A stretch of 13,202 nucleotides of DNA from JAZDEY01 sp043808325 [NCBI: Candidatus Eiseniibacteriota bacterium]. Lineage in GTDB: Bacteria > Arandabacterota > Arandabacteria > Arandabacterales. Below the pieces are notes generated by a model, which saw only the letters and a program-made list of their open reading frames with translations, had not been told where the DNA came from and made no database searches. The number at the start of each line of letters is the position of its first letter. Position 1 is the first letter of the stretch. Positions 325 through 12,838 of the stretch are shown here, piece after piece. The stretch is from contig JAZDEY010000022.1 of the NCBI GenBank assembly GCA_043808325.1, positions 1 to 13,202 of the forward strand, in the 5' to 3' direction. Both the position numbers and the translations under genes were made by a program.

Positions 325-1017
325 ATGGAGAAACCGAAAACCAAGTCTCTGGCAAGACGCGACATTCTCGTAGCAATAATCGTTTTGGGTTCCGTCTGGG
401 GCTTCCTCGAAGTGGTCCTCGGCGGCGCCATGAAGTCAGCGTCAATCCCGTACAAGGGAGACCTCCTGACCGGTCTTGGGATAGGCGTGATGGCGGTATG
501 CATTGCTCTTACGCGGAGGCCGCTCTTGGTTCTCGGTATCGCGGTAACCGCAGTCGCCCTGAAGCAGCTGGCGGTACCGATACTTCATCTGCCTTTCCTG
601 TGCAAGGCCAATTCCTGCCTGGCGGTGATGCTTGCGGGAGGCGCCTTGGCAGGTACGGCCTCCATAGCAGGGAGGACCCTCAAGAAGGGCATCGTCCCGA
701 GAGTAGCTACGGGGCTCTCCGCAGGCCTCCTCGGGGCAACGGGCTTCTACTTCATCGGCATGCACGTGGCGCCGTGTCAGTACCTGTTGTCGTTCAATCG
801 TCCGGGCGGCTTGGTATCGTTCATGGGCGCTGAGGGCATGATCTGGGGTGTCCTGGCCGGAATATTCTTCCCAGCCGGATATCGCCTGGGGCTCACCTTG
901 CAGGACAACCTTTATGGGCTGCGAACCGCCAGACCTCTGGCCTATTACCTCGTCTCGGCCGCAATCATTGCTTGCGCCTGGATAGTAAGCGGCTTTGCGA
1001 TAGCCTCCGGTTTGTAG
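325..1017 (+). CDS. Multi-pass membrane protein of unknown function
   Basis: The 230-residue product has a basic N-terminus (EKPKTKSLARR) and then about seven hydrophobic segments, near residues 13-33, 46-62, 65-88, 96-115, 127-146, 165-187 and 207-228. Visible features are GSVWGFLEVVLGG in the first helix, cysteines at 59, 93, 98, 151 and 217 (93/98 form C-x4-C at a loop), and a His-Val-Ala-Pro-Cys cluster near 147-151. I do not recognise the family. The size and helix count would suit a small transporter or a substrate-binding membrane component, but no signature shows this. The start is set by the GGGAGG site and the TATAAT promoter upstream. The gene lies next to but outside the lexA operon, which has its own promoter, and there is no obvious terminator in the 50 bases between them. 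Confidence 0.8.
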   Translation: MEKPKTKSLARRDILVAIIVLGSVWGFLEVVLGGAMKSASIPYKGDLLTGLGIGVMAVCIALTRRPLLVLGIAVTAVALKQLAVPILHLPFLCKANSCLAVMLAGGALAGTASIAGRTLKKGIVPRVATGLSAGLLGATGFYFIGMHVAPCQYLLSFNRPGGLVSFMGAEGMIWGVLAGIFFPAGYRLGLTLQDNLYGLRTARPLAYYLVSAAIIACAWIVSGFAIASGL

Positions 1018-1061
1018 TGGGGTCTTTGAAGCCTTTCCATCCCTGATCACCAAGAAACAGC

Positions 1062-1090
1062 TTGACTACCAAACGATTGTTTGGTATCTT
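1062..1090 (+). promoter_or_regulatory. lexA-cassette promoter
   Basis: TTGACT (1062-1067; five of six -35 consensus bases) and TATCTT (1085-1090; four of six -10 bases) are 17 bp apart. The start point would be near 1096-1098, only 10-12 bases before the lexA ATG at 1108, so the transcript would begin inside or just before the GAGGGA ribosome-binding site (1095-1100). The whole spacer is occupied by the operator palindrome. This is the only promoter-like site seen before the four-gene cassette. Confidence 0.7.
1067..1086. promoter_or_regulatory. Probable LexA operator (SOS box), 8+4+8 palindrome
   Basis: TACCAAAC, four bases, then GTTTGGTA form a perfect inverted repeat lying between and touching the -35 and -10 boxes of the lexA promoter, so a bound repressor would block RNA polymerase. 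The core AAAC-N4-GTTT has the same half-site spacing as the Gram-positive type box GAAC-N4-GTTC but with A in place of the first G. It does not match the E. coli type CTGT-N8-ACAG. I saw no second copy of this palindrome in the window. Assignment to LexA rests on position and spacing. Confidence 0.75.
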
Positions 1091-1107
1091 GGTAGAGGGA
1101 TGGGAAA

Positions 1108-1710
1108 ATGAGACCTCTTACGCCGCGCCAGCGCGAAATCCTCGACTACATAATCGCATCCATAAGGGATCGCGACCGATTCCCTTCATATCGAGAAATC
1201 GGCCGGAGATTCCACCTGGCCTCGTCCGCGACCGTAAGTCAGCACCTCGATGCTCTCGCGAAGAAAGGTTTCCTCACTCGACTAGGCAAGAGGCTTATGC
1301 TTTCTCCCGAGCATAGGCCCGTACGCGGCATTCCGATAATCGGAAGAGTGGCTGCCGGCATGCCGATCGAGGCAATTGAAAACCACGAGGGTCAGCTCGA
1401 TGTAAGTACGCTCTTTCATGGCGACGGCACTTACTTCGCGGTCAGAGTCAACGGCGACAGCATGCGCGATGCCGGCATGTTTGACGGTGACTATGTCGTC
1501 GTTAGGCAGCAGGAAGACGCCGAGGACGGCGACGTCGTCGTGGCCTACCTGGGGAATGATGAAGCAACGGTAAAGGTCCTGCGTAAGCGAGGCAAGACTT
1601 TGGAACTCGAGCCAAGGAATGCTGCCTACAAAAGCCTGAGGGTGAGTTCCAAACAGCACAACCTGCATATCGGGGGCAAAGTGGTGGGCCTGGTAAGAAA
1701 ACTCAAGTGA
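1108..1710 (+). CDS. lexA: LexA repressor, autocleaving SOS regulator
   Basis: This 200-residue protein has the usual LexA length and layout. Residues 1-65 form the winged helix-turn-helix (LTPRQREILDYI near the start, then PSYREIGRRFHLASSATVSQ), which resembles the B. subtilis type. Residues 75-200 form the S24 peptidase-like domain. The self-cleavage site is Ala83-Gly84 in GRVAAGMP. The catalytic dyad is Ser118 (GDSM) and Lys156 (EATVKVL), so RecA-stimulated autocleavage should be intact. The ATG at 1108 follows GAGGGA at seven bases. An operator-like palindrome sits in the gene's own promoter, indicating autoregulation. The gene leads an apparent operon with the DUF6504-like protein, the Y-family polymerase and DnaE, so its product probably controls the cassette. 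Whether it is the cell's only LexA or a cassette-specific copy cannot be judged here. Confidence 0.95.
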   Translation: MRPLTPRQREILDYIIASIRDRDRFPSYREIGRRFHLASSATVSQHLDALAKKGFLTRLGKRLMLSPEHRPVRGIPIIGRVAAGMPIEAIENHEGQLDVSTLFHGDGTYFAVRVNGDSMRDAGMFDGDYVVVRQQEDAEDGDVVVAYLGNDEATVKVLRKRGKTLELEPRNAAYKSLRVSSKQHNLHIGGKVVGLVRKLK

Positions 1711-1719
1711 GGCGGAGCA

Positions 1720-1974
1720 ATGCTGGTTGAACGCCTTGATGAGAAGATAAAGGTGCGGGCTGACTTCGGGGGAGGAACGATCAAACCCCTGGTCTTCATG
1801 CGGCGCGGCCAGATACACCGGGTAGTGAAGGTGAACTGCTACTGGATGGACCGCGAAGGCAACGCCAAGATCCATTACTTCTCGGTGACGTCCGATTCCG
1901 GCGATGTCTACCAGATACACTTTAACAGTGACGACATGGTCTGGCACCTTGACCTTGTGATGGTGGAGTCATGA
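1720..1974 (+). CDS. Small DUF6504-like protein in the SOS polymerase cassette
   Basis: The 84-residue protein lies between lexA (9-base gap) and the Y-family polymerase (4-base ATGA overlap). GAGG (1709-1712) lies seven bases before its ATG. It is predicted to be mostly beta: KPLVFMRRGQIHRVVKVN, then W-x-D, then IHYFSVTSDSGDVYQIHF and WHLDLV. The order F-x-x-RG-x-x-x-x-V-x-x-V...W...YF-x-V...G-x-Y-x-I...W-x-L resembles the DUF6504 family, which I recall occurring with Y-family and DnaE2 polymerases in actinobacteria. The match is by eye and tentative. It occupies the slot of imuA in the proteobacterial cassette but is far too small to be the RecA-like ImuA. Co-translation with the polymerase suggests an accessory or assembly role in translesion synthesis (inference). 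Confidence 0.7.
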   Translation: MLVERLDEKIKVRADFGGGTIKPLVFMRRGQIHRVVKVNCYWMDREGNAKIHYFSVTSDSGDVYQIHFNSDDMVWHLDLVMVES

Positions 1975-3170
1975 TCGAACGGCTCATAATGTATCTCGAC
2001 ATAGACGCTTTTTTCCCTTCGGTTGAACAGGCGCGGTTCCCGAACCTGCGCGGCAGACCCGTTATCGTGGGCTCGGGTGTGGTTGCAAGCTCGTCCTACG
2101 AGGCGCGCCGCCGCGGCGTCTCGACCGGCATGTCCATAGCACACGCGGTTCGCATCTGTCCCGAAGCCGTGGTTCTCAAGGGACATCAGCATGTCTATGC
2201 CTCATTTGCCGGACACGTATTCGATCGTTGTCGCGAGCTCACACCTCGTGTAGAGACTTATCTCGATGAGGCCTTCTGTGATCTCACAGGAACGCCGGCT
2301 TCAAGATGCGACCCGGCTCGGATCGGCAACGATCTAAGGGCTGCCATAAGAGACGAGGCCGCGCTTGGCGTGACCATAGGTTTCGCTTCGAACCGCATGA
2401 TCGCCAAACTCGCAGCCAAGGATGTGAAGCCCGACGGCGTCGCGGTGGTGGCGTCGGGGCAGGAAGAGACCTTCATGCAGGAGCGACCGGTCGGCGACAT
2501 CCCGGGCATAGGCCGCAAAGGAGCCGAGACGCTCCGTCAGATCAACGTAACCCGCGTCAAGCACCTGCGGCAGTTCCCGTTTCATTATCTGGAGAAGCTC
2601 TTCGGCAAGAACGCCTTCCTGATCCACGAACGGGCGCAGGGACGAGATCCCTATGTAGCGCCATCATTCCCCAGGTCGATATCGCGCGAAACAAGTTTCA
2701 CGCATGACACCATCGACCTTGATGAAATCCTGGGCACGCTCTATTACCTTGCCGAGCGAGCCTGCCGGTCCGCGAGGTCGCTCCCGGCCCTGCCGCGAAG
2801 AGTACACGTCAAGGTCCATTACGGAGACGGCTCCTCTGAGACGGCGTCGTCCTCGTATGGGGAAGCCCAGGTGCTCGATCGTGCGGTCTTCGGGGTCGCC
2901 AAGGACCTCTTCGTAGGAATGTACCGAAGATGCCGCGTGCGCTTGGTCGGTGTCATTCTCTCGGGACTGGTCCCGGCTGACCACGACCAGCAGTCGCTCT
3001 ACGACCAACCACACCAGCGGAGGCTCGGCGACCTTTATCACTCGCTCGATGCTATCCGGGCCAAGTATGGTCACTCATCGGTTATAGCCGGAAGATCCGT
3101 CAGCCTGATCAACCGCCTCGAGCGTGACTCCTATGGCTACATCCTTCGTACCCCTTCGCTTACGAAGTAG
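1971..3170 (+). CDS. dinB: Y-family translesion DNA polymerase (DinB-like)
   Basis: The 399-residue protein has the full Y-family order. The palm begins with LDIDAFFPSVEQ, giving Asp10 and Asp12, and carries the second acidic motif YLDEAFCDLT with Asp99-Glu100, so the metal-binding triad appears intact. Phe15 is the likely steric gate against ribonucleotides. The thumb helix-hairpin-helix is GDIPGIGRKGAETL (176-189). The little finger begins around SRETSF (238-243). A likely beta-clamp-binding peptide is QQSLY (340-344), and the C-terminus is GYILRTPSLTK. Family members bypass damaged bases at replication forks. ImuB proteins occupy this position in lexA-imuA-imuB-dnaE2 operons but lack the catalytic acids, so this one is closer to an active Pol IV. 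The start at 1971 overlaps the preceding stop (ATGA); an in-frame ATG at 1989 is the alternative. The 3' end overlaps dnaE. Confidence 0.92.
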   Translation: MIERLIMYLDIDAFFPSVEQARFPNLRGRPVIVGSGVVASSSYEARRRGVSTGMSIAHAVRICPEAVVLKGHQHVYASFAGHVFDRCRELTPRVETYLDEAFCDLTGTPASRCDPARIGNDLRAAIRDEAALGVTIGFASNRMIAKLAAKDVKPDGVAVVASGQEETFMQERPVGDIPGIGRKGAETLRQINVTRVKHLRQFPFHYLEKLFGKNAFLIHERAQGRDPYVAPSFPRSISRETSFTHDTIDLDEILGTLYYLAERACRSARSLPALPRRVHVKVHYGDGSSETASSSYGEAQVLDRAVFGVAKDLFVGMYRRCRVRLVGVILSGLVPADHDQQSLYDQPHQRRLGDLYHSLDAIRAKYGHSSVIAGRSVSLINRLERDSYGYILRTPSLTK

Positions 3171-6138
3171 ATACAGCCTCTTCGGCGGTACAATGCCTGC
3201 CGGCAAGATCGGTCTCCACCTGCGCGCCGCCGGCCTCGAAGCCGGCGCGCTGCGTGATCGCGGCAATCTCTATGGGGCTCTCGAATTCTACGAGGGATGT
3301 GTCGCTGAGGGAATCAAGCCTCTCGTTGGGGTCGACCTTGTCTGCCCTGTGACCGGACGCGAGCTTGGGCTCGTGGCCCTGACCAGGGATGGTTACGCCA
3401 ACTTATGCCGGATAGTCTCCAAGGTCAAGCTGGACGGTGAGACGCCGCTCATTGGGACTGTGAGAGGGAACTCTCAAGACATCGCCGTGCTTGCCGCCGA
3501 TGCCGACTCCGCGCTCGAGCTCGTGGATTCCATCGGCAGGGACAGGGTGTGGCTGGAGCTGGTGGGGAACCGCGACCCCGCCTCGGTCGTGCGGGAGAAA
3601 CTGGTGGCGGCCGCCCGACATTCCTTGCGAACGGTCGCATCGTGGGACGTAAGGTGTCTGGATCCGACCGAGCACAGGATCTCGCAGGTGCTCCGCACGA
3701 TCGGGGACGGGAAGACCGTGGAGCAGGTCGCCCCTGATGCCAGAGATGCCTCGCTCAAGCAGAGCTTGGGCCTTGCGGACGTGTTCCGCGAGCAGCCTCG
3801 ACTTCTGGACGAATCGGCGAGACTGGCCGAAATGGCGGACCTCAAGATCGAAACCGGCAGACCCCATTTCCCGCGCATCAATGCCACACCGGCACAGTCT
3901 CTCGCCGATCTCGAAAGAATGTCCCTTGACGCGTTGCCGCGCAAGTATCCTCAAGGCCGCGACAAGGCTCTTGCCAGACTTGGTGAAGAACTCCGGACGA
4001 TCAGTGCGCTCGGGCTTGCGGATTACTTCCTGGTTGTGGCGGACATCGTCGGCTTTGCTAGGAACCGGGCGATTCCTGTGACCGGAAGGGGTTCCGGCGT
4101 GGGTTCCATCGTTGCATACCTGGCAGATATCACTCAGGTCGACCCCGTCTCCGAGGAACTGCTCTTCGAGCGGTTCCTGAACGAACTGCGGCCGGACTAT
4201 CCCGACCTCGACATCGACATCTCCTGGAAGCGCAGGGACGAGGTGATCGACTATGTTTACCGGCGCTTCGGCTCGGAAAACGTAGCCATGATCTCAACGC
4301 GTGCCTGTTTCGAGCTTAGACTTGCGGCGCGCGAGGTCGCCAAAGCCTTCGGCCTGAGTCCCTACGAGGCCCAGGCACTTGCGGACAGGTTACCCTACCA
4401 TGCCCCGAAGGATCCCCGGGGGGCCATCGTAAGCATCCTGGGGGACGTGAAACCCGAGTTGCGCCCTGAGCACCGCCGGGCCATAGGAGAGCTGGCCTCT
4501 TCGATCATTGGCTTTCCCAACCATTCAAGTATGCATTGCGGTGGCATTGTTGTCTCGGACCGCCCGCTTACCTATTACACGCCGCTCGAGCGGGCAGCCA
4601 AGGGCATTCAGGTCACCCAATTCGATATGTACTCGATTGAGAGGATCGGACTTGTCAAGATTGACCTGTTGGGGAACCGCGCCCTCGGCATGATCGAGGA
4701 ATCGACCGCCGAAATCCGGCGCAGCCGGGGCAGCGCCCCGGAGGTCCGGCCTGATGATCCAGAAACGGCAAAGATCCTCAGAAGCGGCAGCACGCTCGGG
4801 TGCTTCCAGCTGGAGTCCCCGGCGATGCGCAACCTCCTGGGCATGATGAGGGCGACAACGAGGACCGATGCGACGCTCGCTCTTGCGCTGGTGCGCCCGG
4901 GCCCCTCGGCGGGAGGGATGAAACAGGAATTTCTGAGGCGCCGCCTGGTCGCCGCCGGCGATGGCTGTCCTGAAGAAGGCCCCCGGCTCCCAGTCTACGA
5001 AGAGGATGTGATGAGGGTCATAGCCGAACACACCGGTGTTGGCTTTGCCGAGGCGGATCTCTTCAGACGCTCCCTCAAAGAGGATGCCGGAGACGGCGGT
5101 GAGCTCCAAGCCAAGTTCGTTTTGCTGGCCCAGTCAGCGGGCGTAGGCCGCAGTGAGGCGCTCAGAGCTTGGCACGATGTCAAACGCTTTGCGAGGTACA
5201 CCTTCTCCAAGGCCCATGCTGCCTCCTTTGGCGCGCTTGCCTACGCAGCTGCCTACCTCAAGGCCAACTTCCCGCTGGAGTTTTACGCCGGCGTCTTGAG
5301 GAACCCTTCGGGTATGTATCCACCGTGGGTTCACGTCAACGAGGCGAGGAGAGTCGGAGTAAGAGTGCTGCTCCCGTCGGTCAATCATTCTCAGATGGAT
5401 TTCTCAATCGAGTGCGGAAGCCTGAGAACCGGATTTGCGTCGATCAAGAACCTGCCGCAGGCGACGATCGAAGCGATCGTTCGCGAGCGCAGGGAGGCCC
5501 CCTTTCAGTCGCTCTCCGACTTTCTGGCGCGGGTACCGGCGGGCAAGGAGGCAACACTGGGGCTCATAACCAGTGGGGCCTTCGACCCAATCGAGCCCGA
5601 CCGCTGCCGAGCTCTCACCGAGTATCTGGCCTCCGGCCGGAAGCACCACGCCAGGGGCGAGCTCTGGCTTGGTCTGGGAGAAACCCTTCTTCGCCCGCCC
5701 TCACGGCCCTTCACGCTGCTCCAAGAGCGGAAGATGGAATACACTACGCTTGGTTTCTCCCCACTTGTCCATCCCCTGGAATTCTTTGAAAGCCGCCCCG
5801 GTAATTCGGACCGGGGCTGGGGCGCGGATGTCACCAAACACTGCCCCGACCCCGCAGATTCGCGCCCCCGGCCCCGTCAGCCTCATCCACCAGGCCCCAA
5901 GGCCGTCCGCGGCCTCGTGGCGGCTCTAAGACAGTTCAAGGAGAAGGGCCCGGGTCTATGGTTTGTCAGTCTTGACAATCCGGACGGCATTTCGGAGTGC
6001 ATAGTGCCGCCTGGTGTGCGCCCGGGGCGACTCGAGCTCGGTCAGGCCTGCCTCGCAACCGGCATATCCCAGGACAGGTTCGGGATCTCGACTCTCAGAG
6101 TCAGGTCGATCGAAAACCTGCCGGAGAGATTCGACTGA
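3124..6138 (+). CDS. dnaE2: Error-prone DnaE-type (C-family) DNA polymerase, DnaE2-like
   Basis: At 1004 residues this is shorter than replicative DnaE (about 1160). The order is a degenerate PHP domain (8-240), a palm with GRGSGVGS (321-328), PDLDIDIS with catalytic Asp363 and Asp365, and GLVKIDLLG with Asp514. Fingers motifs follow (GCFQLESPAMR 559-569, LVRPGP 589-594, SKAHAASFG 695-703), then a Pro/Arg-rich linker (about 891-925) and an OB fold (928-998). PHP metal ligands are replaced: P10, R12, R14, G21, R46 and R177 stand where His/Asp are usual, so no PHP exonuclease is expected. Position after lexA and a Y-family gene, the short length and the dead PHP fit a DnaE2 mutagenic polymerase. 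The GTG at 3124 overlaps the upstream gene by 47 bases; the ATG at 3133 is equally plausible. Neither has a strong ribosome-binding site, suggesting translational coupling. I saw no obvious clamp-binding peptide near its C-terminus. Confidence 0.92.
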   Translation: MTPMATSFVPLRLRSRYSLFGGTMPAGKIGLHLRAAGLEAGALRDRGNLYGALEFYEGCVAEGIKPLVGVDLVCPVTGRELGLVALTRDGYANLCRIVSKVKLDGETPLIGTVRGNSQDIAVLAADADSALELVDSIGRDRVWLELVGNRDPASVVREKLVAAARHSLRTVASWDVRCLDPTEHRISQVLRTIGDGKTVEQVAPDARDASLKQSLGLADVFREQPRLLDESARLAEMADLKIETGRPHFPRINATPAQSLADLERMSLDALPRKYPQGRDKALARLGEELRTISALGLADYFLVVADIVGFARNRAIPVTGRGSGVGSIVAYLADITQVDPVSEELLFERFLNELRPDYPDLDIDISWKRRDEVIDYVYRRFGSENVAMISTRACFELRLAAREVAKAFGLSPYEAQALADRLPYHAPKDPRGAIVSILGDVKPELRPEHRRAIGELASSIIGFPNHSSMHCGGIVVSDRPLTYYTPLERAAKGIQVTQFDMYSIERIGLVKIDLLGNRALGMIEESTAEIRRSRGSAPEVRPDDPETAKILRSGSTLGCFQLESPAMRNLLGMMRATTRTDATLALALVRPGPSAGGMKQEFLRRRLVAAGDGCPEEGPRLPVYEEDVMRVIAEHTGVGFAEADLFRRSLKEDAGDGGELQAKFVLLAQSAGVGRSEALRAWHDVKRFARYTFSKAHAASFGALAYAAAYLKANFPLEFYAGVLRNPSGMYPPWVHVNEARRVGVRVLLPSVNHSQMDFSIECGSLRTGFASIKNLPQATIEAIVRERREAPFQSLSDFLARVPAGKEATLGLITSGAFDPIEPDRCRALTEYLASGRKHHARGELWLGLGETLLRPPSRPFTLLQERKMEYTTLGFSPLVHPLEFFESRPGNSDRGWGADVTKHCPDPADSRPRPRQPHPPGPKAVRGLVAALRQFKEKGPGLWFVSLDNPDGISECIVPPGVRPGRLELGQACLATGISQDRFGISTLRVRSIENLPERFD

Positions 6139-6161
6139 GGCAGCCCCACATTATATTTCGC

Positions 6162-6190
6162 TTGACGTGATAGTCGCAGCCTGTTACGTT
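6162..6190 (+). promoter_or_regulatory. Probable promoter for tRNA-Gly
   Basis: TTGACG (6162-6167; five of six) and TACGTT (6185-6190; weak, three of six) are 17 bp apart. Transcription would start near 6197, about 17 bases before the mature tRNA. No terminator separates the tRNA from the radical-SAM gene, so this promoter may also serve the downstream operon. Confidence 0.5.
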
Positions 6191-6213
6191 TGCGTGAGTT
6201 AGCAATCCTGGAT

Positions 6214-6289
6214 GCGGGCATAGCTCAGTTGGTAGAGCATTAGCTTCCCAAGCTGAGGGTCACGGGTTCAAATCCCGTTGCCCGCTCCA
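6214..6289 (+). tRNA. tRNA-Gly (anticodon CCC)
   Basis: A complete cloverleaf can be drawn. The acceptor stem is GCGGGCA/TGCCCGC and the D arm is GCTC...GAGC. The anticodon stem is TTAGC/GCTGA around loop TTCCCAA (anticodon CCC, reading GGG). The T arm is ACGGG-TTCAAAT-CCCGT. The discriminator T is followed by an encoded CCA (6287-6289). The gene lies 75 bases after dnaE2 and 21 bases before the radical-SAM gene. Confidence 0.95.
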
Positions 6290-6300
6290 TTTTTTCGATC

Positions 6301-6306
6301 AGGAGG
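6301..6306 (+). promoter_or_regulatory. Ribosome-binding site deciding the radical-SAM gene start
   Basis: AGGAGG at 6301-6306 is followed by AATT and then GTG at 6311. Spacing is a little short (four bases), but the site is a full consensus. The longer in-frame TTG at 6278 lies inside the tRNA and can be excluded. Confidence 0.65.
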
Positions 6307-6310
6307 AATT

Positions 6311-7687
6311 GTGATCGCGCTGCTCGCTGGACGGCCCTCCAGGGTAGATGGACCTTCGGAGAAGCGGCGCCCCAAGGAAGGTGGATGCCGCCCAGGGCGC
6401 AAGGGTGTCAGGGTCGCGAGTGTGGCCGCCCGCTCGCCTGCCCGGCGGGCTGGAATTCGGCCGGGCGACATGATCACAGGTATCGACGAGATACCGATCA
6501 GTGACTTTCTCGATTTCTACGGTGCCATGTTCGGGTCCGAGCACGTGATCGAGGTAGTCCGCGATCGGACCCACCACTATTTCGAGCTCACACGCAGGAA
6601 AAACCAGGACAGCGGCGTGGAGTCGGCGCCGGCGGGATTGCGCGCCTGTAACAATAAGTGCGTTTTCTGTTTCGTTGACCAGTTGCCGCCAGGCCTGAGA
6701 CGCGAGCTTTACTTCAAGGATGAGGACTTCCGGCTTTCCTTCCTTCACGGCAACTACCTTACCTTGACCAACCTGAGGCTGGCCGATGAGCGAAGGATCG
6801 GCGAGATGCATCTTTCGCCCTTGTACGTTTCGGTACACGCTACCGACGAGGACGTTCGCGCGAGACTGATTGGTCGAAAACCGAGGCAGCCCATACTTGA
6901 TATTCTGGCTCGCATGGGAGGAGCCGGCATACGTTTCCACGCCCAGATTGTGGTTGTGCCGGGCTACAACGACGGGAAGTCTATCAGATCGACTATTGAG
7001 GACTTGCTTGGGCTTGGCGAGATCATCCTTTCGGTGAGCGTGGTGCCTGTTGGGCTGACATCTCACCGCCAAGGGCTGCCCATGCTAAGGCCCATGAACG
7101 AGAAGCAGGCCCGCCAGGTGGTTACCTATGTTGCCGGGCTTAACGCCTCGATGCGCAGGAAGACGGACAGAGGCTTGGTTTACGCATCTGACGAACTGCT
7201 GATTCTCGGCAGCTTCGACATTCCGCCGACGACCTATTATGACGATTTTCCTCAGATAGAAAATGGAGTCGGCCTGGTCCGCCGGCTACTTGATGAGATC
7301 AGGACCCTGAAGACGCCCCCTCAGCTTCGAGGCAAGCGGCTGGCGTTTGTGACCGGATGTCTGGCCAAACCTTACATGGAGCAGGTGGCCTCTAAGCTCG
7401 GGGCGACTGGGCTCAAAGCCGAGGTGATCGCGGTGCGGAACACGCTGCTCGGTCCCGGCGTGACTGTCAGCGGGCTCGTCCCGGGAAGGGCTATCATTGC
7501 CGCGCTCGCCGGTTGGGCGAGGTTCGACGCCGTGGTGCTGCCGCCGGACGTTGTGAACACGGGCGGTCTCACGCTCGATGATGTTCACCCAAGGGATATT
7601 CAGAGGATCTTGAGGACGCCGACGGTCGTCGGAGATTACAGCATCAAGCAAACCTTGAAGAAGGTAATGGCCCATGCGATCGCTTGA
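6311..7687 (+). CDS. PDZ/radical-SAM/DUF512 protein
   Basis: Counting from the GTG, the product has 458 residues. After a basic, Gly/Pro-rich N-terminus, residues 34-95 form a PDZ-like domain (RSPARRAGIRPGD in its ligand-groove region). Next comes the radical-SAM core with Cys113, Cys117 and Cys120 in CNNKCVFCFVDQLP, spacing C-x3-C-x2-C for a 4Fe-4S cluster, followed by YFKDEDFRLSFLHGNYLTLT. The remainder is the DUF512 region, with conserved stretches such as VPVGLTSHR and VTGCLAKPYMEQ. The family is widespread in Firmicutes, cyanobacteria and candidate phyla, usually beside der. Its substrate is not established to my knowledge. The stop overlaps the der start by 14 bases, so the two are co-translated. 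The N-terminal 30 residues are poorly conserved in appearance, so the exact start is less certain than the rest. Confidence 0.92.
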   Translation: MIALLAGRPSRVDGPSEKRRPKEGGCRPGRKGVRVASVAARSPARRAGIRPGDMITGIDEIPISDFLDFYGAMFGSEHVIEVVRDRTHHYFELTRRKNQDSGVESAPAGLRACNNKCVFCFVDQLPPGLRRELYFKDEDFRLSFLHGNYLTLTNLRLADERRIGEMHLSPLYVSVHATDEDVRARLIGRKPRQPILDILARMGGAGIRFHAQIVVVPGYNDGKSIRSTIEDLLGLGEIILSVSVVPVGLTSHRQGLPMLRPMNEKQARQVVTYVAGLNASMRRKTDRGLVYASDELLILGSFDIPPTTYYDDFPQIENGVGLVRRLLDEIRTLKTPPQLRGKRLAFVTGCLAKPYMEQVASKLGATGLKAEVIAVRNTLLGPGVTVSGLVPGRAIIAALAGWARFDAVVLPPDVVNTGGLTLDDVHPRDIQRILRTPTVVGDYSIKQTLKKVMAHAIA

Positions 7688-9023
7688 ATCCAAGCAGCGG
7701 ACGCGTGCGAAGGGAAGCTACCGCGACTTACCGGTAGTAGCGATCGTGGGCAGACCCAATGTCGGCAAGTCCACGCTTTTCAATCGTATTGTCCGCGGGC
7801 GCCTGGCGATTGTCGATGATGAGCCCGGGGTCACGCGGGACCGGAACTACAGAGAGACCAACTGGGCCGGCAAGCGCTTTTTCGTCGTCGACACCGGGGG
7901 CCTTGTTCCCGACGCAAAGGGCGCGATCGACTCGCTGGTCCGAAGGCAGATAGAGGCAGCTCTTGACGAGGCGATCCTGGTGGTGATGGTGGTGGACGGC
8001 ACGGCTGGCATTACGCCGCTGGATCAAGAGATCGCCCGGATCTTGCGGAAACGGGCCACGCAGTTTCTGCTGGTCGTCAACAAGATTGACAGCAAGAAGG
8101 CGGAGGCTCAGGCATCCGAGTTCTACGAACTTGGCCTCGGAGAGTTCATCGAGGTTTCGGCCGAGCATGGTTTGAACACCACGGAACTCCTGGATGCGAT
8201 TGTCGAGCGGATTCCCAGGGTCGAGGCAGGGGAAGAGAAGGTAGTTGCCATGGCGGTCGTGGGCAAGCCCAACGTGGGCAAATCATCACTGGTCAATGCC
8301 CTGACCGGCAGCGAGAACGTAATCGTTCATAACGAGCCGGGCACAACGCGGGACTCCGTGGATACTTTCCTCGAGACCAGCGGGGGTCTGGTCAGATTGG
8401 TAGACACCGCGGGCCTGAGGAGGAAATCACGCGCGGACACCGATCTGGAGAAACACGCCAATTTGAGATCGATCCAGGCGATTGACCGGTCTGATGTCGT
8501 GATCCTTATGCTCGATCCCGAGAGCGGTATAGCAAAGCAGGACCTGGTGATCGCGACCTATGTGGAAAGAGCAGGCAAAGGTCTGGTGCTTGCGTGGAAC
8601 AAGTGGGACCTCAGGGGTGACCGAGATAAGAGGTCTTTCCGGGCCCAAGTGAAGGAGCGTCTCCGGGATGCCACCTATTTGCCGGTTGTCTTCACCTCAT
8701 GTCTGACGGGGCAAGGGCTTGAGTCCCTCCTTGAGACTTGTCTGCGTGTCTGTGTCGATCGGGACGTCAGGATCCCCACCGGGGTCCTTAATCGTTCGAT
8801 TCTCGCGGCCTTCGAGAAGAAGCCTCCATCGGTCAAAGGCAGGGGGTTTCCCAAAGTCTATTATGTAGCACAGACCGGGACCAAGCCCCCGGCCTTCACA
8901 CTCTTCGTCAACAACCCGGACGTGTTCACCGAGACCTACAAACGCCACGTCGAGAAAATCATCCGAACCGTTCACCCGTTCGAGGGAAGTCCCGTGAGAA
9001 TCCGGGTGAGGAGAAGCAAATAG
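7674..9023 (+). CDS. der: Der (EngA), double-domain GTPase for 50S ribosome assembly
   Basis: The 449-residue protein has two tandem GTPase domains and a C-terminal KH-like domain, the hallmark of Der. Domain 1 has GRPNVGKST (26-34), PGVTRDR (51-57), DTGG (73-76) and NKID (136-139). Domain 2 has GKPNVGKSS (197-205), PGTTRD (222-227), DTAG (244-247) and NKWD (309-312). The KH-like part runs from about 370 to the end and is very basic at its tip (RIRVRRSK). The protein acts on the large ribosomal subunit in the cytoplasm and is essential in most bacteria. About 18 residues precede the usual PVVAIVGRPN start; the ATG at 7674 overlaps the DUF512 gene by 14 bases. No later start with a better ribosome-binding site was seen. 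plsY follows after a single base. Confidence 0.98.
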   Translation: MRSLESKQRTRAKGSYRDLPVVAIVGRPNVGKSTLFNRIVRGRLAIVDDEPGVTRDRNYRETNWAGKRFFVVDTGGLVPDAKGAIDSLVRRQIEAALDEAILVVMVVDGTAGITPLDQEIARILRKRATQFLLVVNKIDSKKAEAQASEFYELGLGEFIEVSAEHGLNTTELLDAIVERIPRVEAGEEKVVAMAVVGKPNVGKSSLVNALTGSENVIVHNEPGTTRDSVDTFLETSGGLVRLVDTAGLRRKSRADTDLEKHANLRSIQAIDRSDVVILMLDPESGIAKQDLVIATYVERAGKGLVLAWNKWDLRGDRDKRSFRAQVKERLRDATYLPVVFTSCLTGQGLESLLETCLRVCVDRDVRIPTGVLNRSILAAFEKKPPSVKGRGFPKVYYVAQTGTKPPAFTLFVNNPDVFTETYKRHVEKIIRTVHPFEGSPVRIRVRRSK

Positions 9024-9024
9024 C

Positions 9025-9726
9025 ATGCTGGGAATACTGCTGCTTGCCGGTGTCTCATACCTGATCGGATCGATCCCCTTTGGCTTCCTGGTGGGAAGGT
9101 CGAAGGGCGTCGACCTGAGAACGGTCGGCAGCGGCAACATCGGTTCCACCAATGTCTACCGTGCGCTAGGTCTCGGGACCGCGATTTTGGTCTTTGCCCT
9201 GGACGCGGGAAAGGGTTTTGCGGGAACGCGAATCGTGCCTATGCTGGGTGCGAGTGCGTGGGATGCCGGCTATGTCAGGTTGATCTGTGCGGCCGCTACA
9301 ATTCTCGGGAGCGTGGCCGGCGTCTTCATGAGATTCCGGGGAGGCAAGGGTGTTGCAGCCGGCGCCGGGGTTTTCCTGGGACTCGCGCCTCTCCCAACGG
9401 GGATATGCATCGGTATCTGGGTGGGGCTTGTGGCCCTGACAAAATACGTCTCGGTGGGTTCGCTTGCCGCTGCCGCCTCGCTTCCTGTTTTGGTCGCAGC
9501 CTTCAATCGTTTGGAGTATTCGCGCGACCCGGTTTTCTACCTCGCGGCGGCAGTTGCCGCGGTCGTCTTTGTACGGCACCGGGCCAATCTGAAACGGTTG
9601 GCGGATGGCACAGAGAACCGAGTGGGCGGCAAGAGGCCGGGAACTGTAACCCCGGCCGGGTGCGGCACGAGCACTCCGGATGCCGACAGTCGTCCAGCCG
9701 GCAGCGCCGGCGGGGGGTCACAATAG
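9025..9726 (+). CDS. plsY: PlsY, acyl-phosphate:glycerol-3-phosphate acyltransferase
   Basis: PlsY transfers an acyl group from acyl-phosphate to glycerol-3-phosphate at the inner membrane, making lysophosphatidic acid. The 233-residue protein has the expected hydrophobic helices and the three cytosolic motifs. These are SIPFGFLVGR leading to GSGNIGSTN (35-43), the Gly-rich phosphate-binding loop FRGGKGVAAG (104-113), and RHRANLKRLADGTEN (184-198) with the important His185, Asn188 and Glu197. The usual LGH-x-FPVF stretch before the Gly-rich loop reads LGSVAGVF here, so a commonly conserved His is Ser96. A hydrophilic Gly/Ser/Pro tail (about 203-233) extends beyond the usual end. The gene starts one base after der and is followed by gpsA, which makes its substrate; the stop and the gpsA GTG share one base. 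Confidence 0.95.
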   Translation: MLGILLLAGVSYLIGSIPFGFLVGRSKGVDLRTVGSGNIGSTNVYRALGLGTAILVFALDAGKGFAGTRIVPMLGASAWDAGYVRLICAAATILGSVAGVFMRFRGGKGVAAGAGVFLGLAPLPTGICIGIWVGLVALTKYVSVGSLAAAASLPVLVAAFNRLEYSRDPVFYLAAAVAAVVFVRHRANLKRLADGTENRVGGKRPGTVTPAGCGTSTPDADSRPAGSAGGGSQ

Positions 9727-10745
9727 TGGATGCCGGCAGGGTCAAGAACGTAACCGTGTTGGGAGGAGGCAGCTGGGGAACCGCACTTGCGGTGCTGCTG
9801 GCCTCCAAGGCATATCAAGTCTCAGTCTGGGAGTTTTTCCCCGAGCGGGCGGAGGCCCTTAGGCGGGACCGTGAGAACAGGGCGATGTTGCCTGGGGTAC
9901 GGATACCCGACGAGGTGCGGATAACACCCGACATCGAAGAGGCCTGCGCCGGCACAGACCACCTGCTTTTTGTGGTACCCTCGCACGTTTTGAGGGACAC
10001 AGCCAGGAAAGCCGCGCCGTTCGTCAAGCGAGAACATACGATCACGATCGCAACCAAGGGTATTGAGGAAGGCAGTCTCAAGCGCATGTCGCAAGTGGCC
10101 GCGGAGACGATCCCCGTTGCTGCGGAAAGGATAGCGGTTCTTGTGGGTCCCAGCCATGCCGAGGAAGTGAGCCGGGGCTTGCCTACCGCCGTCGTGGCTT
10201 CCTCCGTTTGTCCCGCGACCGCCGAGACCGTCCAGGAGATCTTCATGACCCCCACCTTCAGGGTATATACCAACACCGACATCGTGGGGGTCGAGGTGGG
10301 AGTCTCCCTTAAGAACGTTGTCGCAATCGCCGCAGGTATATGCGACGGCCTCGGATTCGGAGACAACACCAAGGGAGCCCTGATGACACGTGGACTTGCC
10401 GAGATAACCCGGCTTGGGGTGAGGATGGGAGCGCGCCAGGAGACCTTCTCGGGACTGGCCGGCATTGGGGATCTCATCACCACATGCATTTCGAGGCATA
10501 GTCGGAACCGATATGTCGGGGAGGAGATGGCCAAAGGAAACACCCTTGACCGGGTGCTTGCAGGAATGGTGATGGTCGCTGAAGGGGTGCGGACCACCCG
10601 CAGCGCCGTGAGTCTCGCGAAGGCGCTTGAGGTTGAAATGCCCATCGCTCAGGAAGTCTATCAGATTCTCTTTGACGGAAAGTCACCGAAACAGGCGATC
10701 AAGGATCTGATGCTGAGGAGCAGGAAACCGGAGATATGGTGGTAG
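9726..10745 (+). CDS. gpsA: GpsA, NAD(P)-dependent glycerol-3-phosphate dehydrogenase
   Basis: GpsA reduces dihydroxyacetone phosphate to sn-glycerol-3-phosphate for phospholipid synthesis. From the GTG at 9726 the product is 339 residues, the normal family length. The Rossmann dinucleotide site is VLGGGSWGTALA (11-22). The substrate domain carries VSLKNVVAIAAG with the catalytic Lys196, GDNTKGALMTRGLAEI (212-227), and GLAGIGDLITTC (243-254) followed by SRHSRN. The GTG was chosen because it lies directly upstream of the Rossmann start, follows a G-run (9712-9718), and shares one base with the plsY stop (TAGTG), a typical re-initiation arrangement. The same frame is open far upstream through plsY in the wrong frame; that part is not coding. 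PlsY and GpsA adjacency links supply and use of glycerol-3-phosphate. Confidence 0.97.
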   Translation: MDAGRVKNVTVLGGGSWGTALAVLLASKAYQVSVWEFFPERAEALRRDRENRAMLPGVRIPDEVRITPDIEEACAGTDHLLFVVPSHVLRDTARKAAPFVKREHTITIATKGIEEGSLKRMSQVAAETIPVAAERIAVLVGPSHAEEVSRGLPTAVVASSVCPATAETVQEIFMTPTFRVYTNTDIVGVEVGVSLKNVVAIAAGICDGLGFGDNTKGALMTRGLAEITRLGVRMGARQETFSGLAGIGDLITTCISRHSRNRYVGEEMAKGNTLDRVLAGMVMVAEGVRTTRSAVSLAKALEVEMPIAQEVYQILFDGKSPKQAIKDLMLRSRKPEIWW

Positions 10746-10761
10746 AGCGAGGAGACCAAAT

Positions 10762-11115
10762 ATGAGAAAGAAACCACCGACCAGACTCTACTATTCGATA
10801 ACCGAGGTTGCGAGCATGACGGGCGTGCGGCCTCATGTGCTCCGCTACTGGGAGACCGAGTTCAAGGTGCTCAGGCCCAAGAAGAATCGGGCCGGCAACC
10901 GCATCTACAGGGCGGGCGACATAAAGATCATCCTACTGATCAGGAAGCTGCTCTATGAGGATGGGTTTACGATCGCCGGTGCAAAGAGGAAGATTCCTCA
11001 CGCGAAGGCCGATCCCGAAGCCCCCAAGCACCCCAAGAGGACCAAGCGGGATGACTTGGTTGAGTCGCTCAGAAAGGATCTCCTTGAGATCAAGCAGATT
11101 CTCGAGAGCTCGTAG
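10762..11115 (+). CDS. Short MerR-family DNA-binding regulator
   Basis: The 117-residue protein carries a MerR-type winged helix-turn-helix at 10-77: YYSITEVASMTGVRPHVLRY, then a wing ending in NRIYRAGDI, then a helix beginning KIILLIRKLLYEDGFTI. It has none of the cysteines or effector domains of metal- or drug-sensing MerR proteins. Residues 80-97 are Lys/Pro-rich and 97-117 are a charged helix that could mediate dimerisation. Small proteins of this type are common beside tRNA-Pro and surE in deltaproteobacteria and related phyla. Targets are unknown. The ATG follows AGGAG (10750-10754) at a good distance, 16 bases after gpsA, so it is probably the last gene of the lipid/der operon. Confidence 0.9.
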   Translation: MRKKPPTRLYYSITEVASMTGVRPHVLRYWETEFKVLRPKKNRAGNRIYRAGDIKIILLIRKLLYEDGFTIAGAKRKIPHAKADPEAPKHPKRTKRDDLVESLRKDLLEIKQILESS

Positions 11116-11122
11116 TTTGGGC

Positions 11123-11149
11123 TTGAAGCCTGGTTCCGGTTGTGATAAT
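11123..11149 (+). promoter_or_regulatory. Possible extended -10 promoter for tRNA-Pro(GGG)
   Basis: TTGAAG (11123-11128) lies upstream of GATAAT (11144-11149), which is preceded by TGT and so forms an extended -10 element (11141-11149). The spacer is only 15 bp, so recognition would rely on the extended -10. Transcription would start about 15 bases before the tRNA. Confidence 0.45.
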
Positions 11150-11170
11150 TTCTAGTTCGAAAGCATTGGT

Positions 11171-11247
11171 CGGGGCGTGGCGCAGCCTGGTAGCGCACTG
11201 GCATGGGGGGCCAGGGGTCAGCAGTTCGAATCTGCTCGCCCCGACCA
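11171..11247 (+). tRNA. tRNA-Pro (anticodon GGG)
   Basis: The cloverleaf is complete. The acceptor stem is CGGGGCG/CGCCCCG and the D arm GCGC...GCGC closes around AGCCTGGTA. The anticodon stem is CTGGC/GCCAG around loop ATGGGGG (anticodon GGG, reading CCC). The T arm is AGCAG-TTCGAAT-CTGCT. Discriminator A is followed by an encoded CCA (11245-11247). The C1-G72 first pair is a proline identity feature in bacteria. Confidence 0.95.
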
Positions 11248-11253
11248 ATTTCA

Positions 11254-11265
11254 CCGTCATGACGG
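11254..11265. repeat. 12-bp perfect palindrome CCGTCATGACGG before surE
   Basis: CCGTCA (11254-11259) is followed without spacer by its reverse complement TGACGG (11260-11265), six bases after tRNA-Pro and about 40 bases before surE. It could be a protein-binding site. It lacks a loop and a T-run, so it is not a terminator. It may be chance. Confidence 0.3.
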
Positions 11266-11307
11266 GTCTAGCACCAGTCATTTTGTTGGTACAGAGTGTG
11301 GAAAGAC

Positions 11308-12090
11308 ATGGGACTGGATAATCGCCCCGTGATCCTGGTGTCCAATGACGATGGCATCGGATCCGCGGGCCTCAGAGTACTGGCAGAGAGCCTCAGCCCC
11401 TTGGGCGATGTAGTGGTCGTTGCGCCGGACAGAGAGCGGAGTGCAGCTGCGCATGCCCTGACCCTCAGTCGACCGCTTCGCGTGTCTTCCGTGAAGGAGG
11501 GCTGGTACAGCGTGGACGGCACGCCAACCGATTGCATCGCTCTGGCAGTCATGGAGCTGTTGCCAAGGTATCCCGACCTGGTGGCGGCGGGCATCAACCA
11601 TGGCTCGAATCTGGGTGATGATGTGACATATTCTGGAACAGTGTCGCTAGCCATGGAAGCTACCTTGCAGGGTATCCCGGCATTCGCTGTATCAGTCGCG
11701 GGCAAGAGCGACTTTGATTTCCGTGCAGCCGCCACGTTCTCGCGTCGCGTGGCGCAAGAGATCCTGCGGCGCGGCCTCCCCAAGGACACCCTGCTGAATG
11801 TAAACGTCCCCAACGTACCCCTCGAGGCGATCCGGGGTGTTGCGGTGACCCGCCAGGGGCGCCGTGTCTACAGTGAGACGGTGGTCCGAAAGATGGATCC
11901 GCGCGGCAAGGCGTACTACTGGATTGGTGGCGCCGAGGCCACATGGGAACGTCCAGGAGGAACGGATTACGAGGCGGTGATGGACGGATGGATATCCCTC
12001 ACGCCACTCCACCTGGATCTCACGAACAACCAGGTCCTTGATCAATTGAAGGGATGGGGCCTCTCGCTGAACGGCGGTCCCGAGGCATAG
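11308..12090 (+). CDS. surE: SurE, 5'/3'-nucleotidase (survival protein)
   Basis: SurE is a metal-dependent cytoplasmic phosphatase acting on nucleoside monophosphates and sometimes on short polyphosphate. The signature N-terminal region is present: VSNDDGIGSAGL with metal ligands Asp14-Asp15, APDRERSAAAHALTL with Ser45, and AAGINHGSNLGDDVTYSGTV with Asn97. The C-terminal part has the family's WISLTPLHLDLT. From the ATG at 11308 the product is 260 residues, within the normal range. A GTG at 11296 would add four residues; neither start has a good ribosome-binding site, and 11308 was preferred by comparison with typical SurE starts. pcm follows, the classical survival-gene pairing known from proteobacteria. 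Confidence 0.95.
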   Translation: MGLDNRPVILVSNDDGIGSAGLRVLAESLSPLGDVVVVAPDRERSAAAHALTLSRPLRVSSVKEGWYSVDGTPTDCIALAVMELLPRYPDLVAAGINHGSNLGDDVTYSGTVSLAMEATLQGIPAFAVSVAGKSDFDFRAAATFSRRVAQEILRRGLPKDTLLNVNVPNVPLEAIRGVAVTRQGRRVYSETVVRKMDPRGKAYYWIGGAEATWERPGGTDYEAVMDGWISLTPLHLDLTNNQVLDQLKGWGLSLNGGPEA

Positions 12091-12190
12091 AACCCCTCCG
12101 GTGGCGTCCCGACTCGCTGGTTGGTTTGTTGGCCAGTGGCTGAAAGAGGCTTTCCTTCGCCGCAGGACTGTGGTATGTTCCAAGTCGCCG

Positions 12191-12838
12191 ATGGAGTTTG
12201 TCATCCCCAGGGAACGCATGGTCACCGAGCAGTTGGCGCGCCGGGGCATCCGGGACGAACGGGTGTTGCGGGCTATGGGGAAGATTCCACGGCATCTTTT
12301 CGTGGACGAGGCCCTGGCGGGACGGGCATACGGCGATTATCCGCTGCCTATTGGCGAACGCCAGACCATCTCCCAGCCGTACATGGTTGCTCTCATGACC
12401 GAGGCGCTGGAGTTAGTCGGGCACGAGCGGGTACTCGAGATCGGCAGCGGCTCGGGCTATCAGACTGCCGTTCTGGCCGAACTCTGCAGCAAGGTGTATT
12501 CGGTCGAGCGGATCAAGAGTCTGGCCGATCGCGCTCTCCACACATTGGATAGTCTCGGTTACTACAACATCCTCATCCGGGTGGGTGATGGCTCGCTGGG
12601 GTGGCGCGACGAAGCCCCCTTTGATGCGGTCCTGGTAGCGGCGGGGGCACCAGCAGTTCCAAGCGCTCTTGTTGAACAGTTGGCTCCAAGAGGTCGGCTG
12701 GCCGTTCCGGTGGGGGATACCTACGGGCAGACGCTGCGCAAGGGCGTCAAGGAAGATGAGGGAATACGCTGGACTGATCTGGGCGGCTGTATCTTCGTGA
12801 AGTTGATCGGTCAGCAAGGTTGGCCCAACGAACAATAA
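12191..12838 (+). CDS. pcm: Pcm, protein-L-isoaspartate O-methyltransferase
   Basis: Pcm methylates isoaspartyl residues in aged proteins with S-adenosylmethionine, starting their repair. From the ATG at 12191 the protein has 215 residues, matching the family. It shows [18 protein letters not shown] (9-26), the substrate loop [13 protein letters not shown] (53-65) with the conserved Thr59-Ile60-Ser61, the methyltransferase glycine motif [13 protein letters not shown] (81-93), YSVERI (103-108), and [12 protein letters not shown] (143-154). A longer frame starts with GTG at 12101, only 10 bases after surE, and would add 30 residues unlike the family. It has no clear ribosome-binding site, so the shorter form is preferred, with doubt. 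That choice leaves a 100-base gap after surE in which I see no clear signal. Confidence 0.93.

Follow-up and report, generated by a model that had tools for sequence, protein, structure and literature searches.

We describe a four-gene set in the window, by which we mean the whole analysed stretch of 13,202 nucleotides of contig JAZDEY010000022.1, from a Candidatus Eiseniibacteriota bacterium. Behind a single promoter it encodes LexA, an 84-residue protein, a Y-family polymerase (PolY) and a C-family polymerase (DnaE). Judged from sequence, the set is probably an operon under LexA repression that encodes a translesion mutasome of the split-ImuB type, a rare form of this known bacterial mutagenesis system. 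New here are a lexA-led four-gene operon of this composition outside Actinobacteria, the co-occurrence of PolY and DnaE across genomes and, from alignments, a conserved PolY tail ending in RTPSLTK. The original prediction for this DNA had proposed an alternative mutasome; what stands of it is a LexA-led gene set that lacks ImuA, has a PolY of intact appearance and includes a non-replicative DnaE, and what falls is its novelty, as variants were published in 2019 and 2026.

Gene order, promoter and operator

The elements of the operon are as follows.

1062-1090, + strand: sigma-70-like promoter TTGACT-17-TATCTT, the sole promoter-like site in 950-6320
1067-1086, + strand: probable LexA operator TACCAAAC-GATT-GTTTGGTA, a perfect 8+4+8 inverted repeat inside the 17-base promoter spacer
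1108-1710, + strand: lexA, 200 residues; TIGR00498 at E=1.4e-52, above cut-off
1720-1974, + strand: protein best read as a standalone ImuB-C (DUF6504 family), 84 residues; weak PF20114 match, six strands in the model
1971-3170, + strand: Y-family polymerase (PolY), 399 residues; IMS at E=4.5e-36, IMS_C at E=4.1e-18
3124-6138, + strand: DnaE2-type C-family polymerase, 1004 residues, GTG start; DNA_pol3_alpha at E=4.2e-69

Gene calls, family models and the repeat agree with the proposed layout of one operator-bearing promoter followed by the four genes, all on the + strand and spaced by +9, -4 and -47 bases. ImuA had been predicted to be missing, and no RecA-like gene lies between lexA and dnaE in the 13-kb window; besides PolY, just the 84-residue gene is found there. 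An internal promoter, named beforehand as a sign against a single operon, did not turn up, the site ahead of lexA being the only promoter-like one in 950-6320 (1 seen, 1.3 expected by chance), and a search of the same interval for terminator-like sites found none. The 47-base overlap of PolY and DnaE (3124-3170) recurs at equal length in the Candidatus Anammoxibacter locus L009 (8001-8047), despite 35% identity between the two DnaEs. At both loci the overlapping DNA encodes the conserved PolY tail together with the start of DnaE.

The repeat at 1067-1086 is probably a LexA operator, as its geometry and location suggest. Its 18-base core occurs once in the window when up to 3 mismatches are allowed (0.28 expected). 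In the related genome of locus L088, TAGTGAAC-GATC-GTTCACTA stands just upstream of lexA with the same geometry, and we take this repeat to be close to the Gram-positive LexA operator GAAC-N4-GTTC. A perfect repeat with a 4-base spacer lies within 60 bases upstream of 3 of the 15 lexA starts scanned (window, L088 and L111). LexA itself has a DNA-binding domain and an S24 peptidase domain with the Ser/Lys pair and Ala-Gly site, and retains A83-G84, S118 and K156, presumably the self-cleavage residues.

The 84-residue protein as a standalone ImuB-C

The small protein, predicted to be DUF6504-like, indeed resembles that family, and we correct its description: it is best read as a standalone ImuB-C, the domain otherwise fused to the end of ImuB. 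With this assignment the gene set becomes a 'split ImuB' accompanied by a DnaE2-type polymerase. The DUF6504 model (PF20114) scores the window protein at 16.2 bits (E=0.013) against a Pfam cut-off of 24.2, and matches 8 of 10 aligned small proteins, the window's included, at E<=0.1 (best 2.9e-7). It also matches the C-terminus of Agrobacterium ImuB (residues 427-481, E=0.0042, below cut-off), a Syntrophomonas protein (E=7.5e-8) and the 80-residue protein of a Deinococcus lexA-Y-DnaE cassette (E=2.1e-7), which its workers call ImuB-C (PMC8072749). The domain was named by Aravind et al. in 2013 from GSU0042-like and Syntrophomonas proteins (PMC3765255). Profile comparison with hhalign joins the window group to the Syntrophomonas and Alicyclobacillus ImuB-Cs at 74.9% probability, and these in turn to fused ImuB-C at 53.1%.

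The predicted structure of the window protein (pLDDT 89.5) has six strands and no helix, and that of the Syntrophomonas ImuB-C (pLDDT 92.0) has six strands in the same order. The C-terminal tryptophan W75 is invariant in 9 of 9 and 10 of 10 aligned rows, two rows being common to both alignments. Comparison of the ImuB-C model with Foldseek-ranked PDB chains gave no clear match (best Z 5.4, a weak match that is not informative), in agreement with the 2026 statement that ImuB-C apparently has a novel fold (PMC12926913).

PolY

As predicted, the window PolY keeps Asp10, Asp12, Asp99 and Glu100 in alignment. In an alignment of 44 PolYs (the window and 43 relatives, including the tail-less L001 and L018; residues counted by hand), all 44 have D10, D12 and D99, be they DnaE-linked or unlinked. 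This intact active site suggests that insertion opposite a lesion would be possible. At loci L111-L125, from the phylum of genome G003, all 15 tail-bearing PolYs carry Asp for the catalytic Glu and keep D10, D12 and D99.

The C-terminal part contains QQSLY at 340-344, a clamp-motif look-alike. It is followed by LYHSLDAIRAKYGHSSVIAG, within a stretch that aligns, at a marginal score, with the published RecA-NT motif (E. coli RecA 5-29); in a check of this match, the real first 45 RecA residues ranked 7th of 3,600 scored, shuffles included. The protein ends in GYILRTPSLTK, identically in the window and in Anammoxibacter, whose whole PolYs are 44% identical, and variants of this tail end all other aligned PolYs except L001 and L018.

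Placement in a tree, as the original prediction had proposed, puts the window PolY in a starred 15-row clade of DnaE-linked and unlinked PolYs with E. coli DinB outside it; the tree is a quick one in which several long branches, some clearly misplaced (e.g. UmuC), occur.

DnaE

By its tree position the window DnaE is not replicative and sits with second-copy DnaEs. Its catalytic motifs PDLDID and KIDLLG are intact, and its PHP residues are lost (PLRLRS for HLHxHS, RDRGN for TDHGN). QxxLF is absent from the usual clamp site; positions 224 and 499 carry two looser Q-type matches. DnaE2 and DnaE3 have been described as having weak clamp motifs and as having lost PHP residues (PMC3919608).

Trees of 62 and 26 rows place the window DnaE in a 99* clade of 9 and 7 rows, respectively, whose other members are DnaEs from genomes with a tail-bearing PolY. 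The AU test rejects both a clade uniting it with six DnaE1 rows (p-AU 0.0002) and one uniting it with two alphaproteobacterial DnaE2 (DnaE2A) rows (p-AU 0.000365). Its grouping with the Bacteroidetes row L159, of DnaE2B type by description, is loose. The Streptomyces row L160, again a DnaE2B kind by description, is placed with DnaE2A, and both placements involve long branches. The other DnaE of nine cassette or relative genomes groups with E. coli DnaE1 (L146, L147, L149-L155); row L173, labelled DnaE1, falls outside the DnaE1 group. DnaE matches number two in 18 of 20 chosen genomes, one in G010 and three in G013, where two of the three are neighbouring pieces on one contig.

We treated the Syntrophomonas, Alicyclobacillus and Deinococcus cassettes, whose Y proteins look inactive, as a separate set, since their DnaEs take other positions in the tree. 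The DnaE of L004, on a contig labelled Thioalkalivibrio, groups with Chloroflexota rows (100*), and a mislabel or gene transfer is possible.

Distribution and co-occurrence

Forty-four loci were examined, the window included, with contig ends limiting the counts. The genome search that had been proposed for the ordered set found lexA-ImuB-C-PolY-DnaE, in this order on one strand, at four of them: the window, L009, L088 and L090. Partial sets are of several kinds. ImuB-C-PolY-DnaE occurs at L089, L123 and L125; at L094, ImuB-C and PolY are followed after 1.7 kb by broken DnaE frames. Six loci have PolY-DnaE with no ImuB-C detected between (L096, which also has lexA, L001, L109, L110, L117 and L102, the last with a split DnaE), and seven have lexA-ImuB-C-PolY without a DnaE nearby (L087, L111, L115, L116, L120, L122 and L124). 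The remaining loci hold fewer or more scattered parts. A scan of the genome collection with DnaE gave 25 loci, all four genes being present in L009 alone.

Other arrangements were seen as well. Six of the loci L111-L125 have two successive LexA-like open reading frames upstream of ImuB-C. In genome G032, a dnaE of the window's clade directly follows lexA (L204), and a different contig carries lexA-ImuB-C-PolY (L087), which looks like a cassette split into two lexA-led halves. The Desulfosarcina ovata plasmid cassette L156 comprises lexA, a DUF72 gene, a Y-family-like protein with the annotation 'hypothetical', and DnaE.

Tail-bearing PolYs and DnaEs of this type co-occur at the genome level, in counts that are uncorrected for shared ancestry and rest on classes set after the tables had been seen and on a narrow first cut-off. 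In the phylum of the Anammoxibacter genome G006 (a drawn sample of 199 genomes; DnaE of this type taken as at least 945 bits), such a DnaE is present in 21 of 27 genomes with a tail-bearing PolY versus 14 of 172 others (Fisher p 3e-14), or in 23 of 27 when G027 and the split G013 are added by hand (Fisher p 1e-16). The corresponding figures in the phylum of G003 (40 genomes) are 20 of 24 versus 6 of 16 (Fisher p 0.006). The two genes are often unlinked in both phylum samples.

In two further phylum samples, no PolY match extended to the end of the tail. One comprised 198 genomes from the phylum of G009 (Slackia, Actinomycetota label), 5 of them with a match at E<=1e-80, and the other 68 genomes from the phylum of G001 (Hydrogenedentota label), 42 of them with a match at E<=1e-70; the furthest model positions reached were 388 and 396, respectively, of 408. 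Viral contigs scanned with PolY and with DnaE held no relative of either, and a plasmid collection held DnaE relatives in 1922 records and PolY relatives in 1597, all below 60% identity.

The NCBIfam ImuA model did not reach its cut-off in any of the 16 cassette or relative genomes. The test is weak, because none of 14 control genomes reached it either, among them Caulobacter, which we take to have ImuA. Matches below the cut-off occur in 15 of the 16 genomes, mostly in frames of 287-433 residues that are probably RecA.

Proposed mechanism

The mechanism we propose starts from what the sequence shows, namely the order of the genes, the geometry of the operator, the conserved residues, the families and relatedness of the proteins, and their co-occurrence; from there we infer induction, the formation of a complex, docking of the tail and a division of labour. 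Upon DNA damage, RecA would trigger self-cleavage of LexA and so free the promoter operator, and one transcript would then yield LexA, ImuB-C, PolY and DnaE. PolY would act as the hub, bound to the beta clamp via QQSLY and to a RecA protomer via its RecA-NT-like helix. Its last residues, GYILRTPSLTK, probably dock ImuB-C, a role suggested by the presence of the tail in PolYs whether or not a DnaE is linked to them. ImuB-C in turn probably bridges the PolY tail to the PHP domain of DnaE; a PHP/ImuB-C contact and RecA binding both feature in published AlphaFold models of relatives, ImuB and DnaE2 (PMC12926913). DnaE, which has neither proofreading residues nor the usual clamp motif, would thereby be brought to the lesion for low-fidelity synthesis, and PolY may insert opposite the lesion before handing over to DnaE for extension. 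This possible joint action of two active polymerases is the interesting part of the model.

Several observations weigh against the picture of an ImuA-less, tail-organised complex with an active PolY. ImuB-C, on which the tail is proposed to dock, was not found in the fetched region at 22 of 42 loci with such PolYs, and a DnaE above the same bit cut-off is present in the 14 of 172 genomes not counted with a tail-bearing PolY. Position 100 is Glu in 22 of the 44 aligned PolYs, Asp in another 21 and Gly in the last one, and this drift may mean that the group has relaxed its catalysis. The RecA-NT match scores a marginal 3.7 bits (E=12) for the first 60 residues of E. coli RecA and 0.6 bits for the whole protein, and the window-group profile matches fused ImuB-C directly at a weak 14.8% probability. 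The scan upstream of lexA in L009 found no operator-like repeat. The window DnaE has a long branch, which makes its exact place inside its group unsure. Finally, the absence of ImuA applies to the 13-kb window, and imuA or imuB may lie elsewhere in the host.

Alternative explanations

The acids of PolY need not mean activity. PolY could be a scaffold only, as ImuB is, with DnaE doing all the synthesis and the acids being a remnant before loss; we consider this unlikely, yet the most serious of the alternatives. The replacements of Glu100 by Asp (21 of 44) and Gly (1 of 44) fit it, as does Deinococcus, whose ultraviolet (UV) mutagenesis needs DnaE2 together with ImuY, a Y-family protein predicted to be inactive (PMC8072749), a need that does not imply sufficiency. 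Against it, D10, D12 and D99 are kept in all 44 aligned PolYs, and the window protein also has E100. Alternatively, the operon may hold two separate translesion polymerases that share a promoter, PolY working with ImuB-C and RecA, and DnaE alone. The seven loci with lexA-ImuB-C-PolY and no DnaE in the fetched region, an arrangement also described in Geobacter (PMC6511836), would be expected on that account. A second DnaE can, however, be located elsewhere in the genome when none is adjacent (G032, G142 and G045), and the co-occurrence is strong, if uncorrected for shared ancestry. We hold independent action to be improbable.

The original prediction had itself named ordinary dinB and dnaE1 genes as the contrary case. 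General family models do name the two genes Pol IV and Pol III alpha, and an ordinary dinB and a replicative dnaE1 might simply happen to follow lexA. Those NCBIfam matches are, however, below cut-off save that to the broad superfamily TIGR00594; the DnaE1 grouping is rejected at the p-AU given above, the PHP residues are lost, and PolY lies in its starred clade apart from E. coli DinB. We therefore disfavour this explanation as very improbable.

Beyond the LexA-repressed split-ImuB mutasome proposed for the window, a broader and more speculative idea is that of a widespread two-polymerase mutasome in Planctomycetota, in the phylum to which the Calditrichota genome G003 belongs, and in one or more further lineages. 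In it, an active PolY would insert and pass the end to a DnaE2-type polymerase via an ImuB-C clip on the RTPSLTK tail, and the system would be a living form of the split, still active ancestor that gave rise to ImuB through fusion and inactivation. We put this forward tentatively and regard it as doubtful.

Relation to known mutasomes

The idea of an ImuA-less mutasome is already in print, in 2019 and 2026, and a Deinococcus analogue has been tested with a PolY predicted to be inactive. In the passages we draw on, Timinskas and Venclovas (2019) describe ImuA-less variants comprising lexA-imuB-C-polY in Geobacter, an inactive PolY with ImuB-C and DnaE2 in Kyrpidia, and an active PolY2 with DnaE2 in Bacteroidetes (PMC6511836). 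They propose that a PolY/ImuB-C fusion gave rise to ImuB, which later recruited DnaE2 and lost its activity, and suppose that an active PolY makes DnaE2 unnecessary (PMC6511836). The co-occurrence of PolY and DnaE argues against the latter suggestion. Timinskas et al. (2026) report DnaE2B with an active PolY and a standalone ImuB-C, found, in their complete genomes, only in Actinobacteria, and give Tessaracoccus lapidicaptus as the representative of a DnaE2B-PolY-ImuB-C-RecA module (PMC12926913).

That module, likened here by description, shares with the window an apparently active PolY, a standalone ImuB-C, a DnaE2 and the absence of ImuA and ImuB. It differs in having been reported only from Actinobacteria, and the window set is lexA-led. 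The Deinococcus lexA-imuY-imuB-C-dnaE2 cassette likewise has the four kinds of gene under LexA and no imuA. It differs in that ImuY is predicted to be inactive, whereas the window PolY keeps its acids, and in that ImuB-C lies 3' rather than 5' of the Y-family gene; the DnaE of Deinococcus sp. D7000, on a long branch, falls elsewhere in the tree than the window DnaE. Without ImuY or DnaE2, UV mutagenesis was reported to be abolished in D. deserti and lowered in D. ficus (PMC8072749). The Geobacter sulfurreducens lexA-imuB-C-polY operon, reported as a damage-induced single transcript (PMC6511836), corresponds by description to the first three genes of the window in order and in its active PolY, but has no dnaE2.

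The lexA-imuA-imuB-dnaE2 mutasome has LexA control, a Y-family hub, an ImuB-C domain and an error-prone DnaE in common with the window; the window differs in having no ImuA, a separate ImuB-C gene and the PolY acids, and its DnaE is not grouped with DnaE2A rows. The Bacteroidetes PolY2-DnaE2 layout, as in the Chryseobacterium plasmid locus L159, similarly has an intact-looking PolY followed by DnaE and no adjacent ImuA annotated, but no ImuB-C was found there and lexA is divergent. In the literature searched we found no paper on DUF6504 or on a mutasome in anammox bacteria; for ImuB-C with PolY in Planctomycetes it gave just the two Timinskas papers, and a dedicated search for Geobacter lexA operons found none.

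Our analysis places the composition of active PolY, ImuB-C and DnaE2 in further phyla, behind a single LexA-type operator. The co-occurrence makes it a testable question whether insertion and extension are split between two active polymerases in one SOS-induced complex, and the compact natural cassettes and defined PolY tail provide material for biochemical tests.

Neighbouring genes

Just 5' of the lexA promoter and on the same strand, 292-1017 encodes a 241-residue protein for which Pfam gave nothing significant (best E=0.17) and NCBIfam nothing at all. The genes beyond the operon begin with the following.

6214-6289: tRNA-Gly, downstream of the operon

Within 6278-12838, Pfam matches identify a DUF512 radical SAM/PDZ protein and Der. 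The best identity of Der is 46% over 28 chosen genomes (26 with a match; 37-40% in those from the sample of G006's phylum) and 49% over 149 genomes of the phylum of G010 (140 with a match), values too low to fix the host phylum. The open reading frames after Der, by eye, presumably encode PlsY, GpsA, a MerR-like regulator, SurE and a protein isoaspartate methyltransferase, and two tRNA-Pro genes lie among and 3' of them.

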